In this document: one piece after another, positions 44,145 through 49,263 of the stretch
Layout of the letters: every line of letters begins with the position of its first letter
How positions within the stretch are numbered: the stretch's first letter is position 1
Source of the DNA: Peribacillus sp. ACCC06369
GTDB taxonomy: Bacteria > Bacillota > Bacilli > Bacillales > DSM-1321
DNA: 64,000 nt
Reading direction: 5' to 3'
NCBI RefSeq assembly: GCF_030348945.1
Contig: NZ_JAUCEN010000002.1
Location: 1,364,001-1,428,000 of the forward strand
Translations under genes and position numbers: made by a program
Notes under the pieces: model-generated
The model's database searches: none
Seen by the model: only the letters and a program-made list of their open reading frames with translations
What the model was told of the DNA's origin: nothing

Positions 44145-44957
44145 ATGAATTGTGGTGAATTACTTATCATTGGCGGGGCAGAGGATAAATGCCTTGAAGG
44201 TGAAGTATTAAATAAATTTGTCCAGCTTGCAATCCGTTCAGATGGCGGAATAGGAATATTGCCTACAGCGAGTGAAATTCCTGAAGAAGTGAGTACGGAG
44301 TATATCAAGATTTTCAGAGATTTAGGCGTGGACAGGGTGGAAGTGATCAAGCTGGATTCAAGGCAGGATGCAGACGATCCGGCGATTTGTGAACAGCTGA
44401 CCTCTTTTTCTGCCATCTTCATTTCTGGAGGAAACCAAAGCCGATTGTCTGAGTTGATTGGAAAATCCAAATTCCACAATGCCCTTTCTAAAGCCTGGCA
44501 TAATGGAATGGTGATAGCAGGGACAAGTGCTGGAGCTTCCATTTTAGGTAAGCATATGATCGTTGCTGCCGACACGATGCTGAATGATAATAAGTTAAAG
44601 GTTGAGATCGGGATGGGTTTCGGCTTCCTTGACGGCCTGATAATTGATCAACACTTTTCCCAGCGTGGCCGCTTTGACCGACTGTTAAGTGCGATAGCAG
44701 GGAATAAAGAAATTATGGGTATTGGAATTGATGAAAATACAGCAATTTTAGTCAAAGACGGTCATTTTGAAGTCTTAGGCCAACATCAAGTATTGGTTCT
44801 TGATGGCAGCAATAGTGATTATATCAATATCACATCTTCTGATAATGGTAGTGAAGAGTTGACTCTTTCGGGATTTAACCTTCATGCACTAACCAGGGGA
44901 TACCGTTTTGACCTGCTTACCAGGAAATTGTTGATGAAAAAGGGGATCCAACAATGA
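44145..44957 (+). CDS. cphB: Cyanophycinase CphB
   Basis: 270 residues, family S51 serine peptidase. Cuts the arginyl-aspartate polymer cyanophycin to beta-Asp-Arg dipeptides. The nucleophile elbow is GTSAGASILG near 126, ISGGNQSRL near 93 and GFGFLDGLIIDQHFSQRGR near 163 are family-typical. It overlaps cphA by four bases (ATGA), so synthesis and breakdown enzymes are translated together. Ribosome site AAAGGTGAG, with GAGGA nearer the start. Confidence 0.93.
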   Translation: MNCGELLIIGGAEDKCLEGEVLNKFVQLAIRSDGGIGILPTASEIPEEVSTEYIKIFRDLGVDRVEVIKLDSRQDADDPAICEQLTSFSAIFISGGNQSRLSELIGKSKFHNALSKAWHNGMVIAGTSAGASILGKHMIVAADTMLNDNKLKVEIGMGFGFLDGLIIDQHFSQRGRFDRLLSAIAGNKEIMGIGIDENTAILVKDGHFEVLGQHQVLVLDGSNSDYINITSSDNGSEELTLSGFNLHALTRGYRFDLLTRKLLMKKGIQQ

Positions 44958-47575
44958 TAATCAATCGAGTCCGTTATTTAAAAGGACCTAATTATTTTGC
45001 TTATACACCGACGATTTGCATTGAATTGGATATAGGGGAACTGGAACAGAAACCATCTGATTCAATACCTGGATTCAATGAAAAATTGTTAAAGGCGCTC
45101 CCGAACTTGGGAAGCCATTCATGTTCAAAAGGGTATCGAGGCGGTTTCGCCGAAAGGCTGAGAAAAGGAACATGGATGGGACATATATTGGAGCATATGA
45201 CGATTGAACTTCAAAACTTGGCCGGCATCGAAGCCATTCGTGGAAAAACGATAATGATGGAAAAGAAGGGTTTTTATTATGTTACCTTTGACTATCAGGA
45301 GCCTCACTCGGGTCTTCAAGCTTTTTTAGCAGCGAAAGATATCGTGGAAGCCATCCTGAATGGTGAAAAACTTATAAATGTACAATCTTATGTAAAACAA
45401 ATAGAGCAGTTATATTATAGAAATAAACTGGGGCCAAGTACCGAAGCCATTTTTAAGGCTGCACAAGCAAAAAATATCCCTGTCGAGCGAATGGGTGATG
45501 AAAGTTTACTACGTTTAGGAACGGGTTCAAGGCAGAAGTATGTCCAGGCGACAATTTCTAGCCAGACATCGAATATTGCAGTTGAGAATTCATGTGATAA
45601 ATCAATGACCAAATTAATATTAAGAGGGTGTGGCCTTCCTATACCTGAAGGTGAAGTTGCCCATTCCATTGAAGATATCTTTACCTCGGCGGACAAGCTG
45701 GGTTTCCCATTGGTCATAAAACCGTATAATGGGAGACAAGGGCAGGGTGTCATCACCCATATCAAAAATAAGGATGAACTATTCAATGTCATCAATTGTT
45801 TGGAGTCGCATGTGGAGAAGTACATTGTCGAACGGCATATTGAAGGACATGATTATCGGTTACTGATAGTCAATGGAGAACTTATAGCCGCTAGTTTGAG
45901 GCTTCCTCCCTATATTATTGGAAACGGTAAGGAAACAATACGCAATTTGATAGAAAAGGAAAATCGTCATGCATTGCGGGGGGAAGGTCATGAAAAGCCG
46001 ATGTCAAGAATTCCGCTTACACATACCGTTACGTGTTACTTGGAAAAATCGAACCGGACGCTGAATACCATTCCGAACCAAGGGGAATTGGTTCAAGTTG
46101 TCGGCAATGCAAATCTTTCGACTGGTGGAAAGGCAATCGATGTAACGGACCAGGTCCATCCAAGCATTAGGAATATGGCGGTTGCTGCCGCGAAAGCGAT
46201 TGGTTTGGATATAGCCGGAATAGATTTTATCTGTGAGGATATATCAAAACCGATCGAACATTCACGGACTGCAATTATTGAAGTGAATGCTGCACCGGGA
46301 ATTCGAATGCATCATTATCCGAGTGAAGGGGAAAAAAGGGATGTAGGCAAAGCCATTGTCGATTATTTATTTCCGACTCGGGAAGAGGCAGCTATACCGA
46401 TCATCGCAGTGACCGGAACAAATGGAAAGACGACAACCACCCGATTGGTTCATTATTTTCTTACTAATGAAAAAACTAAGGTAGGTATGACGAATTCTGA
46501 TGGAGTATATATCGGCGATGAGGTATTGGATCAAGGTGACTGCAGTGGCCCGGTCAGTGCAAGAATGGTGTTGGGCCATCCTGAAGTTGATGTAGCCGTT
46601 TTGGAAACGGCCCGGGGAGGCATTCTGCGTGAAGGTCTGGCTTTTCGTAAATGTGATGTGGGGATCATTACTAATGTGAGTGAAGATCACCTTGGCCGTG
46701 ATGGAATCGATACATTGGATGATCTGATAAAATTAAAGAGGCTGGTAGCAGAAGTTGTACTGAAAACAGGCTATTGTGTACTGAATGCAGATGATCCGAA
46801 TGTAGCTGCCATGAACGCTTATACAGATGGGGAGGTCATTTATACCTCTACAGATGCCACCCAGCCTCACGTGAAGGCAGCGATAAATGGTGGTTGTAAA
46901 GTTTGGTACGTCAATGAACAAGGCATGATCTGTCATTCCTCTGATGGTGTCATCCATCAATTTATGGATTGCTCCATGATACCAATAACGATTAACGGCA
47001 TGGCACGTCATAATATCGCCAACTTACTTCAGGCGTTAGCCGCAGCCGAAACACAAGGGATCTCCATGGAAGAACTAAGGAGAAAGGCTGTCACATTTAT
47101 GCCTGATACCAATTTGTCTAAAGGGCGTTTCAATTTAAAAAAGTTGAAAGAGCGAACGATCATCATCGACTATGCCCATAATGAAGCAGGATTAAAGGCC
47201 ATATTCGAAACGGTCAGTGCCTATAATAAAAATCGTCTAATTACTGTTTTGGCCGGACCGGGGGACCGTATTGATGAAGAGCTTATCAGGCTCTCCAAAA
47301 TGGCGGCCATGAATTCTGATTTGTTCATCATTAAAGAAGACGAAGATTTGCGGGGAAGGGAGCCTTTCGAAGTAGCCGGGCTGCTTCAGGAAGCTGCCGT
47401 AGAAGCAGGGTTACATAAAGATCGAACATTCATCGAACCTAATGAATTGGATGCATTCGTAAAAGCCTGGGAAGCATCACAACCGGGTGACCTATTATTG
47501 TTCTTTTACACGGATTTCGAATATGTAGAGCGGTTTTTCGAAAAGGTTTCAACAAATCCATTGCCAAAGAAATAA
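44954..47575 (+). CDS. cphA: Cyanophycin synthetase CphA
   Basis: 873 residues, full length. Makes multi-L-arginyl-poly-L-aspartate, a nitrogen, carbon and energy store, by adding Asp then Arg at two ATP sites. Residues 1-160 are the N-terminal domain; about 210-470 the ATP-grasp domain (FPLVIKPYNGRQGQGV near 253, IIEVNAAPGIRMHHYPSEGE near 442); about 480-873 the Mur-ligase-like domain with ATP loop VTGTNGKTTTTRLVH near 490 and the NVSEDHLGRDGI segment near 575. Last gene of the cphB-cphA operon. Its terminator follows within 10 bases. Confidence 0.94.
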   Translation: MIINRVRYLKGPNYFAYTPTICIELDIGELEQKPSDSIPGFNEKLLKALPNLGSHSCSKGYRGGFAERLRKGTWMGHILEHMTIELQNLAGIEAIRGKTIMMEKKGFYYVTFDYQEPHSGLQAFLAAKDIVEAILNGEKLINVQSYVKQIEQLYYRNKLGPSTEAIFKAAQAKNIPVERMGDESLLRLGTGSRQKYVQATISSQTSNIAVENSCDKSMTKLILRGCGLPIPEGEVAHSIEDIFTSADKLGFPLVIKPYNGRQGQGVITHIKNKDELFNVINCLESHVEKYIVERHIEGHDYRLLIVNGELIAASLRLPPYIIGNGKETIRNLIEKENRHALRGEGHEKPMSRIPLTHTVTCYLEKSNRTLNTIPNQGELVQVVGNANLSTGGKAIDVTDQVHPSIRNMAVAAAKAIGLDIAGIDFICEDISKPIEHSRTAIIEVNAAPGIRMHHYPSEGEKRDVGKAIVDYLFPTREEAAIPIIAVTGTNGKTTTTRLVHYFLTNEKTKVGMTNSDGVYIGDEVLDQGDCSGPVSARMVLGHPEVDVAVLETARGGILREGLAFRKCDVGIITNVSEDHLGRDGIDTLDDLIKLKRLVAEVVLKTGYCVLNADDPNVAAMNAYTDGEVIYTSTDATQPHVKAAINGGCKVWYVNEQGMICHSSDGVIHQFMDCSMIPITINGMARHNIANLLQALAAAETQGISMEELRRKAVTFMPDTNLSKGRFNLKKLKERTIIIDYAHNEAGLKAIFETVSAYNKNRLITVLAGPGDRIDEELIRLSKMAAMNSDLFIIKEDEDLRGREPFEVAGLLQEAAVEAGLHKDRTFIEPNELDAFVKAWEASQPGDLLLFFYTDFEYVERFFEKVSTNPLPKK

Positions 47576-47612
47576 AAAAAGTGCATTCCGCCCTGCGGAA
47601 TGCACTTTTTTG
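47574..47612. terminator. Terminator after cphA
   Basis: AAAAAGTGCATTCCGC-CCT-GCGGAATGCACTTTTTT, sixteen-pair stem. Confidence 0.9.
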
Positions 47613-47841: not shown

Positions 47842-48627
47842 TTAGCTTTTTTTCATAACCGTTTCAGTCACAGTAGGGACATTGGCATGGTCTTTTTTAT
47901 ATACTTTTTGAAGCACGATGGATTGAACAATCATGAATAAACCTCCGATTGACCAATACAGTGGCAATGCAGCAGGAGCGGAGAAAGAAATGAATAAAAT
48001 CATTACTGGTGAGAGCAGGCTCATCAGCTTCATTTGCTTCTGCTGTTCTTCCGGCATTTGTCTCATGGAAATGACCGATTGGAAGTAATAAATGACGCCA
48101 GCGATAATCGCCATGGCAATATTCGGCTGGCCAAGGCTGTACCAAAGGAAACTATGGGTCGCGATTTCATGGGAACCTTGAATCGCATAATAAAAACCCA
48201 TTAGAATCGGCATTTGAATCAAAAGCGGCAGGCATCCCATATTTAGAGGATTGACTCCGTGTTTTTGGTAAAGCTGCATCATTTCCTGTTGAAGGGCCTT
48301 TTGTTTAGCTGGATCTTTCGTCTCTTTAATTTTCTGCTGGATTGCTGTCATTTCCGGTTTCAGCCCATTCATCTTCGTTTTCATGCTGAGCTGTGTTTTA
48401 TATTGCTTGGCAGTCAGCGGAAGCAAAACTAGACGGATTAAAAATGTCATCATGATGATGCTTAAACCATAGTTACCATTAAATAAATCAGCATTAAATT
48501 CAAGCATTTTTGTCATGGGGTTAACCAATGCAGTATGAAATGGGCCGCTCGTTGCTGCAGAGCACCCTGTCAAAAGGGTCGTTGCTAGAAATAGGACGGT
48601 AAATAGAAACATGTTTTTCTTCTTCAA
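47842..48627 (-). CDS. yidC2: Membrane protein insertase YidC2 (YqjG type)
   Basis: 261 residues. Lipoprotein signal with lipobox LLTGCS near 18-23, then the five membrane segments of the YidC/Oxa1 fold: GNYGLSIIMMTFLIRLVLLPL near 52 (split) contains the conserved hydrophilic-groove Arg, and GVNPLNMGCLPLLIQMPILMGFYYAI near 123. Inserts membrane proteins. TTG start at 48627, fixed by AGGAGGAATCATT. It lies 27 bases after the MifM-like gene, and its ribosome site can pair with the last codons of that gene; the arrangement is that of B. subtilis mifM-yidC2. Confidence 0.92.
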   Translation of the reverse strand: MKKKNMFLFTVLFLATTLLTGCSAATSGPFHTALVNPMTKMLEFNADLFNGNYGLSIIMMTFLIRLVLLPLTAKQYKTQLSMKTKMNGLKPEMTAIQQKIKETKDPAKQKALQQEMMQLYQKHGVNPLNMGCLPLLIQMPILMGFYYAIQGSHEIATHSFLWYSLGQPNIAMAIIAGVIYYFQSVISMRQMPEEQQKQMKLMSLLSPVMILFISFSAPAALPLYWSIGGLFMIVQSIVLQKVYKKDHANVPTVTETVMKKS

Positions 48628-48634
48628 AATGATT

Positions 48635-48673
48635 CCTCCTCGAATTGTTAGTGGTTAAACAACGAGAAGGAGG
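48635..48673 (-). promoter_or_regulatory. Hairpin hiding the yidC2 ribosome site
   Basis: On the minus strand CCTCCT (48673-48668, in the last codons of the MifM-like gene) pairs with the AGGAGG ribosome site (48640-48635). The stem continues with CG/CG and TTGTT/AACAA, separated by small bulges. A ribosome stalled near the end of the upstream frame would open it. Confidence 0.75.
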
Positions 48674-48942
48674 CTTGGCTCATCGGAATCATCGGGTGAG
48701 TCCTTTTGCCGGATAAATGTGAAAAAGCGCTGTGCACCACGCCAATCAAAACTGCTGCCTGCATGAACAGGGGATTTACTTTTATCTGAATGAACGGAAG
48801 CTTGATATTTATCGTTCAAGAGCGATTGCTTTTTATTTAAGAAATAAAAAGCAGCCAGTGGAAAGACAAAGGTAAATAAGTAACCTGCCCATACCGCATG
48901 GCGAACGGTCTGATAATCGAATTCTAATAATAATTCCCACAT
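48655..48942 (-). CDS. mifM: MifM-like nascent-chain sensor of membrane insertion
   Basis: 95 residues, the same length as B. subtilis MifM. One membrane segment at about 18-36 (VWAGYLFTFVFPLAAFYFL) then a soluble tail. The end FIRQKDSPDDSDEPSLLLVV resembles the MifM arrest region (Arg and aromatic residues, then an acidic stretch before SLLL). Known model: when YidC1 is short, MifM stalls the ribosome, unfolds the hairpin and turns on yidC2. Arrest residues differ here (RFFTFIRQK), so the stall needs testing. ATG after GAGGGATTCCT. Confidence 0.78.
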   Translation of the reverse strand: MWELLLEFDYQTVRHAVWAGYLFTFVFPLAAFYFLNKKQSLLNDKYQASVHSDKSKSPVHAGSSFDWRGAQRFFTFIRQKDSPDDSDEPSLLLVV

Positions 48943-49263
48943 AGGAATCCCTCGTTTTTTCTAAGATAAGAAAATTTAGTTCGGTTAGCCTCCAAGTAAT
49001 AAAGCAAGTAACGATTTAAGGCCTTGAATGACTATTGATCTTACTGAGTTTAAATCATTAAGAACACTATATCAAATTCTAGTGGAAGAAGCTAAAAAAT
49101 ATAGGGGTATTTTCAAAAAAACAAACAGGGAATTTTTTCCGGAGTGTTAATTTGACGTTAAAGGTCCTTTTAGAATCCAGAGATGTAATTTGAGCGAAGA
49201 TTACACACATGGTCATTCGTCTACATACGGATAAAAGGAAGTTCAATTATGAGCTGAAAAGGT

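Follow-up and report, generated by a model that had tools for sequence, protein, structure and literature searches.

MifM of Bacillus subtilis is the model for species-specific ribosome stalling, and both its residue rules and the rule concerning Met90 of uL22 come from that one species. According to the accessible parts of the papers concerned, the arrest motif is RIxxWIxxxxxMNxxxxDEED (PMC7897499), stalling occurs mainly at codons 89–92 (PMC6037786), and residues R79 and N81 meet Arg66 of L4, the substitution N81A abolishing stalling (PMC4423224). The last of these studies, for which all 19 substitutions were made, reports in its accessible text that Gln at uL22 residue 90 is unlikely to support efficient MifM stalling. 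A survey gave 572 MifM sequences from 592 Firmicutes genomes (accessible part of PMC10987492), and the class is therefore known beyond B. subtilis. A literature search on MifM, YidC2 and Peribacillus found no paper joining Peribacillus with MifM or YidC2, and one on MifM, Q90 and L22 found no paper.

We have analysed a locus in a 64,000-nucleotide stretch of Peribacillus sp. ACCC06369 (the window; contig NZ_JAUCEN010000002.1, positions 1,364,001 to 1,428,000), for which a sequence-only reading had proposed a MifM-like arrest peptide and a ribosome-site hairpin in front of yidC2. All coordinates are those of the window unless a genome position is given.

Results

The upstream frame and its surroundings

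The order of genes on the minus strand is an upstream frame with its own Shine–Dalgarno (SD) sequence, 27 bases, and yidC2 (47842..48627, minus; 261 aa, TTG start; Pfam 60KD_IMP, E 1.7e-45). The upstream frame comprises 95 codons and a TAA stop (48655..48942, minus; ATG at 48942), so that frame, length, start and stop are as first read, and GAGG ahead of it is its own ribosome site; the span given in the original reading stops at 48635, the last base of the yidC2 SD, the start of yidC2 lying at 48627. No terminator-like site was found between the upstream frame and yidC2 on the minus strand, and a terminator-like hairpin follows yidC2 (47575..47611, minus). A possible promoter, TTGATA-17-TAAACT (49047..49075, minus), is weak, such sites being no commoner in the region than in shuffles. 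A cyanophycin synthetase gene (44954-47575, plus) is convergent with yidC2, and the two-way terminator-like hairpin at 47575-47611 is common to both. The genome encodes a second YidC (G000:C2:5463988-5464545) adjoining an rnpA-like frame, which is presumably the primary one.

A single membrane helix, as claimed beforehand, is predicted (from hydropathy alone) at about residues 17-35 of the peptide (codons 17-35, 48838..48894, minus; hydropathy maximum 1.74). The expected arrest region, WRGAQRFFTFIRQKDSPDDSDEP (codons 67-89, 48676..48744, minus), was aligned to B. subtilis-group MifM through intermediates and contains the acidic cluster DDSDE (codons 84-88, 48679..48693, minus), which is followed by PSLLLVV at the C-terminus. 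The column of D85 holds Asp in 141 of 163 distinct proteins, and the distance from the helix to this conserved Asp is 50 residues here against a family median of 52 (163 proteins). The peptide found a match in 30 of the 36 genomes of the genus, its own included, the other six giving none; three near relatives, from Peribacillus simplex, P. butanolivorans and P. frigoritolerans, are annotated as hypothetical proteins. Searches of Pfam and NCBIfam gave no family within cut-off for the 95-codon peptide, PDB sequences gave no match to it, and three Rfam matches at the locus all fell under gathering cut-offs.

Relationship to MifM

A direct profile comparison of the Peribacillus group with the B. 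subtilis group gave no match (probability 2%). We also built a family HMM from 116 other yidC2 upstream frames, excluding the Peribacillus group, the B. subtilis group and family f24. It scored this peptide at 29.3 bits and B. subtilis-group MifM at 29.0, whereas 198 scored full shuffles reached at most 7.1 and 200 helix-keeping shuffles at most 12.3; for the C-terminal 40 residues the scores were 18.3 and 15.4, respectively, against at most 4.2 for 299 shuffles. The intermediates had been selected for their position and hydropathy and, in 36 of the 116 cases, for acidic tail residues as well, so that the acidic columns of the model are biased and the rest are not.

MifM sequences have been delimited by four features (PMC10987492). 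The frame lies upstream of yidC on the same strand; its N-terminal hydropathy helix (17-35) is followed by 60 residues, at least 30 soluble ones being specified after the N-terminal signal; the strongly negative five-residue window specified for positions 70-100 is found in DDSDE at 84-88, with four acidic residues of five; and a shared homology cluster with B. subtilis MifM is provided by the HMM via intermediates, a different method from the MMseqs2 of the paper. Two features of the MifM mechanism, an SD-sequestering hairpin with its 5' arm in the end of the frame and a second YidC elsewhere in the genome, are also present. The B. subtilis-type motif RIxxWIxxxxxMN is absent ahead of the acidic cluster, as it is from most of the family. 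Judged by sequence comparison, the upstream frame is a well-supported member of the MifM family, of a known kind and with the look of an ordinary MifM orthologue.

The hairpin over the yidC2 SD

The 5' arm, carrying the anti-SD, lies in codons 90-95 (48658..48673, minus), and the 3' arm (48634..48649, minus) carries the yidC2 SD, AGGAGG (48640-48635), the columns of which are invariant among 26 distinct genus sequences. The last codons, AGC CTC CTT CTC GTT GTT, allow two registers with this SD. The one originally proposed, in which CCTCCT (48673-48668) pairs with AGGAGG (48640-48635), CG (48664-48663) with CG (48642-48641) and TTGTT (48662-48658) with AACAA (48649-48645), fits throughout, although the minimum-energy fold prefers another, pairing UCCUUCUCG (48671-48663) with CGAGGAGGA (48642-48634) in addition to UUGUU with AACAA; the whole SD is covered in both. 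The 51-nt fold, made as that reading had suggested, pairs the SD with the end of the frame at -16.2 kcal/mol (z = -4.5) and none of 200 shuffles was as stable, while an 81-nt fold gave z = -2.36, with 5 of 200 shuffles as stable. When the upstream part was shuffled with the SD and downstream bases fixed, equally full pairing between SD and tail arose in one of 60 shuffles (L001). The hairpin, its 5' arm lying just after the acidic cluster, supports the suggestion that the RNA design is that of the mifM switch.

A lack of covariation in the stem among relatives had been named as grounds for abandoning the proposal. Among 26 distinct sequences from the genus, the originally proposed register had 91.7% of its cells paired and the other 89.8%, slid partners giving 42-73%, and in each register 3 of 500 shuffles reached this level of pairing. 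However, only one pair had two-sided changes, a number that 492 and 480 of 500 shuffles equalled or exceeded, and the five pairs retained by an alifold consensus showed no two-sided change; the test is a weak one because the SD side does not vary. Across the order, by contrast, covariation was evident from an arm-swap test in which tails and intergenic stretches were dealt anew among loci, one locus being taken from each of 56 clusters (55% identity, drawn from 126 loci). The native energy sum was -785 against -518 (sd 18) for the chimeras (z = -14.8, 0/2000), and the native locus was better than its chimera mean in 45 of 56 clusters; at this locus alone, 9% of chimeras equalled or exceeded the native stability. 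Controls with shuffled tails gave z values of -2.4, -2.8 (-2.75) and 0.0 and reversed tails -1.1, so composition explains a little. The two arms are mutually adapted within individual loci across the 56 clusters.

Pairing of the SD with the tail exceeded 0.7 in 111 of 126 ordinary upstream-frame loci, 19 of 21 loci of an overlapping type described below and 4 of 15 frameless loci, and at most 3 of 60 shuffles were as high in 77 of 126, 15 of 21 and 3 of 15, respectively, all among the matches listed. Six framed loci (L099, L118, L119, L136, L140, L174) did not satisfy the limits set here on gap, flank or SD, and L114 is in none of the three classes. Two loci, L105 and L113 (G246, G310), have a normal core, a tail about 17 residues longer and SD pairing of 0.32 and 0.33; the switch may be altered there.

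Selection and modelled stall geometry

Among 20 close relatives, dN/dS was 0.047 for codons 1-40, 0.244 for 41-66, 0.042 for 67-89 and 0.295 for 90-95; the residues that would occupy the tunnel are strongly constrained, and the tail past the predicted stall is relaxed. In 42 of the 56 clusters the tail contains a four-base anti-SD, which falls 16, 8 and 18 times, respectively, in the three reading frames. With the tail relaxed and the anti-SD occurring in all three frames, the tail looks to be set by RNA. The comparison of the acidic stretch and SLLL with the end of MifM had been part of the original proposal: DDSDE at 84-88 is present, but SLLL is probably no peptide signal.

We modelled the geometry by masking the RNA as far as 12 or 15 bases beyond the P site and reading out SD accessibility. 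The SD was closed with the P site at codons 84-86 and began to open at 87-88, which is the end of the acidic cluster. It opened alike at their own acidic ends in L026, L027, L110, L074 and the B. subtilis-group locus L176, and less sharply in L181; freed accessibility levelled near 0.5 in this sequence and reached 0.81-0.98 in L026 and L027. The predicted stall has about codons 87-90 in the P site.

Residues of the arrest core

The named loci of the B. subtilis group include B. spizizenii, halotolerans, atrophaeus and velezensis but no record of B. subtilis itself; their cores, for example RITTWIRKVFRMNSPVNDDED, come near the published motif. The order-wide consensus, drawn from 163 distinct proteins (73 clusters, with cluster weighting) in an alignment anchored on the acidic column, is W-[IL]-x-[KR]-x-[IV]-[RK]-R-K-x-x-P-D-D-x-[DE]-[DE]. 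In the columns of B. subtilis R79, M80 and N81 the weighted counts over the 73 clusters are R 35/K 27, R 48/K 8 and K 52; basic residues fill two or all three of these columns in 66 clusters, and Met-Asn is seen in one. The W73 column holds W in a weighted 41 of 73 clusters and R in 15. The Peribacillus peptide has R72 for W73, F73 for I74 and R78-Q79-K80 for R79-M80-N81. Of the published B. subtilis residues, R69 and the acidic cluster alone align, and I70, W73, I74, M80 and N81 do not; from the family majority the peptide departs by having R for W, T for K/R and Q for R. These comparisons suggest that Met80-Asn81 of B. subtilis is a rare state and that the Peribacillus differences mostly follow the family majority. 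A lysine at the N81 position should meet the constriction differently. The surmise that this might be a diverged arrest peptide with its own rules is correct in that the residues differ from those of B. subtilis, but the core fits the order-wide consensus and the peptide is no isolated divergent form with rules peculiar to it.

uL22 residue 90

Numbered by F85, R86, G91, R92 and A93 of PMC4423224, the uL22 of this genome reads FRPRAQGRA, with Gln at position 90 (rplV, L203, G000:C2:139223-139534). Residue 90 is Met or Gln within one genus and across the order. Among the matches listed, the frame is retained in 39 of 40 Gln-90 genomes, representing nine families, and in 104 of 109 Met-90 genomes, the five without it belonging to family f40; 20 genomes are outside the count. 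Either Gln-90 is no hindrance to the other cores of the family, or stalling was lost and the frame kept; the first is favoured because the arrest region is constrained.

At the M80 position, Peribacillus has R in six tested Met-90 framed genomes and Q, H, K or I in 14 tested Gln-90 genomes. That uL22 residue 90 and the peptide have co-evolved was rejected as a claim, given the three Met-90 genomes of family f24 with I or L at this position and genus g42, in which the core VRIRTYPSEDPD occurs on Gln-90 (G145) and on Met-90 (G246, G310); we keep it as a lead only. In the YidC2 tree the Gln-90 rows do not form one clade, with weak support.

Distribution and an overlapping variant

The survey covered 169 loci, 30 in the genus found with the peptide and 139 further yidC2-like ones among the matches listed, and the following counts hold for those matches. 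An upstream frame was present in 154 of 169, ending near or before yidC2 in 132 (a few start calls among which are doubtful) and running into it in 22; of the loci picked by YidC2 alone, 124 of 139 had a frame. Fourteen of the 15 frameless loci belong to family f40. All 14 surveyed loci of that family (L133, L135, L137, L139, L141, L142, L146, L147, L149, L152, L154, L156, L160 and L163) have a yidC2-like gene and no upstream frame by the survey criteria, and at least L133, L137 and L156 have a GC-rich repeat immediately ahead of the SD. A typical frame in G167, with the tail KRKEGTDDEDDYVFLL, is outside the survey counts.

In the 22 overlapping loci (L030, L068, L144, L150, L151, L153, L155, L157, L158, L161, L164, L166, L169-L175 and L178-L180, among the matches listed) there is no stop before yidC2; the frame crosses the SD and start, and its end falls 26-131 bases into yidC2, which is read in a different frame. 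The relative frame is the same in 16 of 22, where the SD reads as a residue followed by Gly-Gly. We did not find this variant described: the main text of PMC10987492 does not contain the word 'overlap', and in a literature search on MifM, overlapping and YidC2, which returned PMC13183943 (accessible in part), no paper treats overlap by its title. In L030 (G019, same genus) the stop before yidC2 has been lost and tail–SD pairing, at 0.77, does not exceed chance, with 16 of 60 shuffles as high; this is possibly a decaying switch.

Discussion

It is highly probable that the upstream frame encodes a MifM-family monitoring substrate that regulates yidC2 through predicted stalling. With ample YidC capacity, insertion of the helix would pull on the nascent chain and translation would run through, after which the hairpin would re-form and yidC2 would stay low. 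When insertion lags, the ribosome would stall once the acidic cluster had come close to the peptidyl transferase centre, its P site on about codons 87-90, and would then cover the anti-SD arm, freeing the SD so that YidC2 would be made. The tunnel contacts would probably be of the family-majority type, with basic residues for B. subtilis Met80-Asn81, on a ribosome with uL22 Gln-90. Several results tell against this reading: the failed direct profile comparison, the mismatch at most published B. subtilis residues, the reported effect of uL22 Gln-90, the freed accessibility of only about 0.5 in this sequence, the modest per-locus significance of SD pairing (77 of 126) and the six genus genomes in which no match was obtained.

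Three other explanations have to be weighed. If the frame encoded an ordinary small membrane protein, the translation of which merely melts the hairpin and so couples yidC2 to it without programmed arrest, the hairpin and an upstream frame alone would suffice. This is unlikely given that the arrest region is conserved like the helix (dN/dS 0.042 and 0.047) whereas linker and tail are relaxed, that in six of seven modelled loci SD opening coincides with movement of the P site beyond the acidic cluster, the effect being less sharp in L181, and that the basic/acidic core persists over 73 clusters. Slightly less probable still is that the arrest peptide arose independently, obeys rules of its own and is MifM-like in layout only. 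The failure of the direct profile comparison and the differences at most B. subtilis contact residues would accord with such an origin, and the layout can arise independently, as in ApcA and CliM (accessible parts of PMC7897499 and PMC13183943); against it, the HMM of 116 outside intermediates scores both groups alike and well above shuffles, the C-terminal 40 residues included.

The published data on uL22 position 90 and B. subtilis MifM (PMC4423224, accessible part) raise a further explanation, that this is a MifM descendant which lost stalling through the change of uL22 to Gln-90, its frame being kept as a coupled leader. We consider it the least probable of all, since the frame is kept in nearly all Gln-90 genomes among the matches listed, across nine families, and the arrest region is strongly purified in the 20 close relatives, with Gln-90 in all 10 in which uL22 was examined. 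A MifM-family monitoring substrate is thus the reading we prefer.

The locus itself is of less interest than what the comparison says about the model system. We propose tentatively, giving the two parts together somewhat less than an even chance, that the textbook contacts between MifM and the tunnel constriction (Met80-Asn81, uL22 Met90) may be peculiar to the B. subtilis group, whereas the greater part of the family, this peptide included, would stall through a basic [RK]-[RK]-K patch at the constriction and the acidic cluster that follows it, on Met-90 and Gln-90 ribosomes alike, and that the overlapping architecture may add occlusion of the start site by released ribosomes. Natural pairs of Met-90 and Gln-90 Peribacillus with related peptides allow one to ask directly which contacts are responsible for stalling and how an arrest peptide can persist when the tunnel changes, and the overlapping variant poses the question of what effect a released ribosome has on the start site that it then crosses.

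Among other known systems, SecM and VemP share the monitoring-substrate logic with an SD hairpin but target secA and secDF2 with unrelated arrest sequences, as far as the accessible sources describe them. ApcA of actinobacteria and the RAPP-type arrest peptides share the layout upstream of yidC or sec genes, yet a RAPP/RAGP-like C-terminal motif is absent from the 95-codon peptide. CliM of Clostridium (uC_KYxIW) is encoded upstream of a yidC with a helix, a C-terminal arrest region and an SD hairpin; its KYxIW is likewise absent here and, in the accessible accounts, CliM, unlike MifM, does not rely on acidic residues and can arrest at termination. With B. subtilis MifM the Peribacillus peptide shares 95 codons, an N-terminal helix, an acidic cluster near residue 86, a yidC2 SD hairpin with its 5' arm in the last codons and a second YidC in the genome. 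It differs in having WRGAQRFFTFIRQKDSPDDSDE where B. subtilis has RIxxWIxxxxxMNxxxxDEED, with G for I70, R for W73, F for I74 and Q-K for M80-N81, and uL22 residue 90 is Met in B. subtilis and Gln in the Peribacillus genome.
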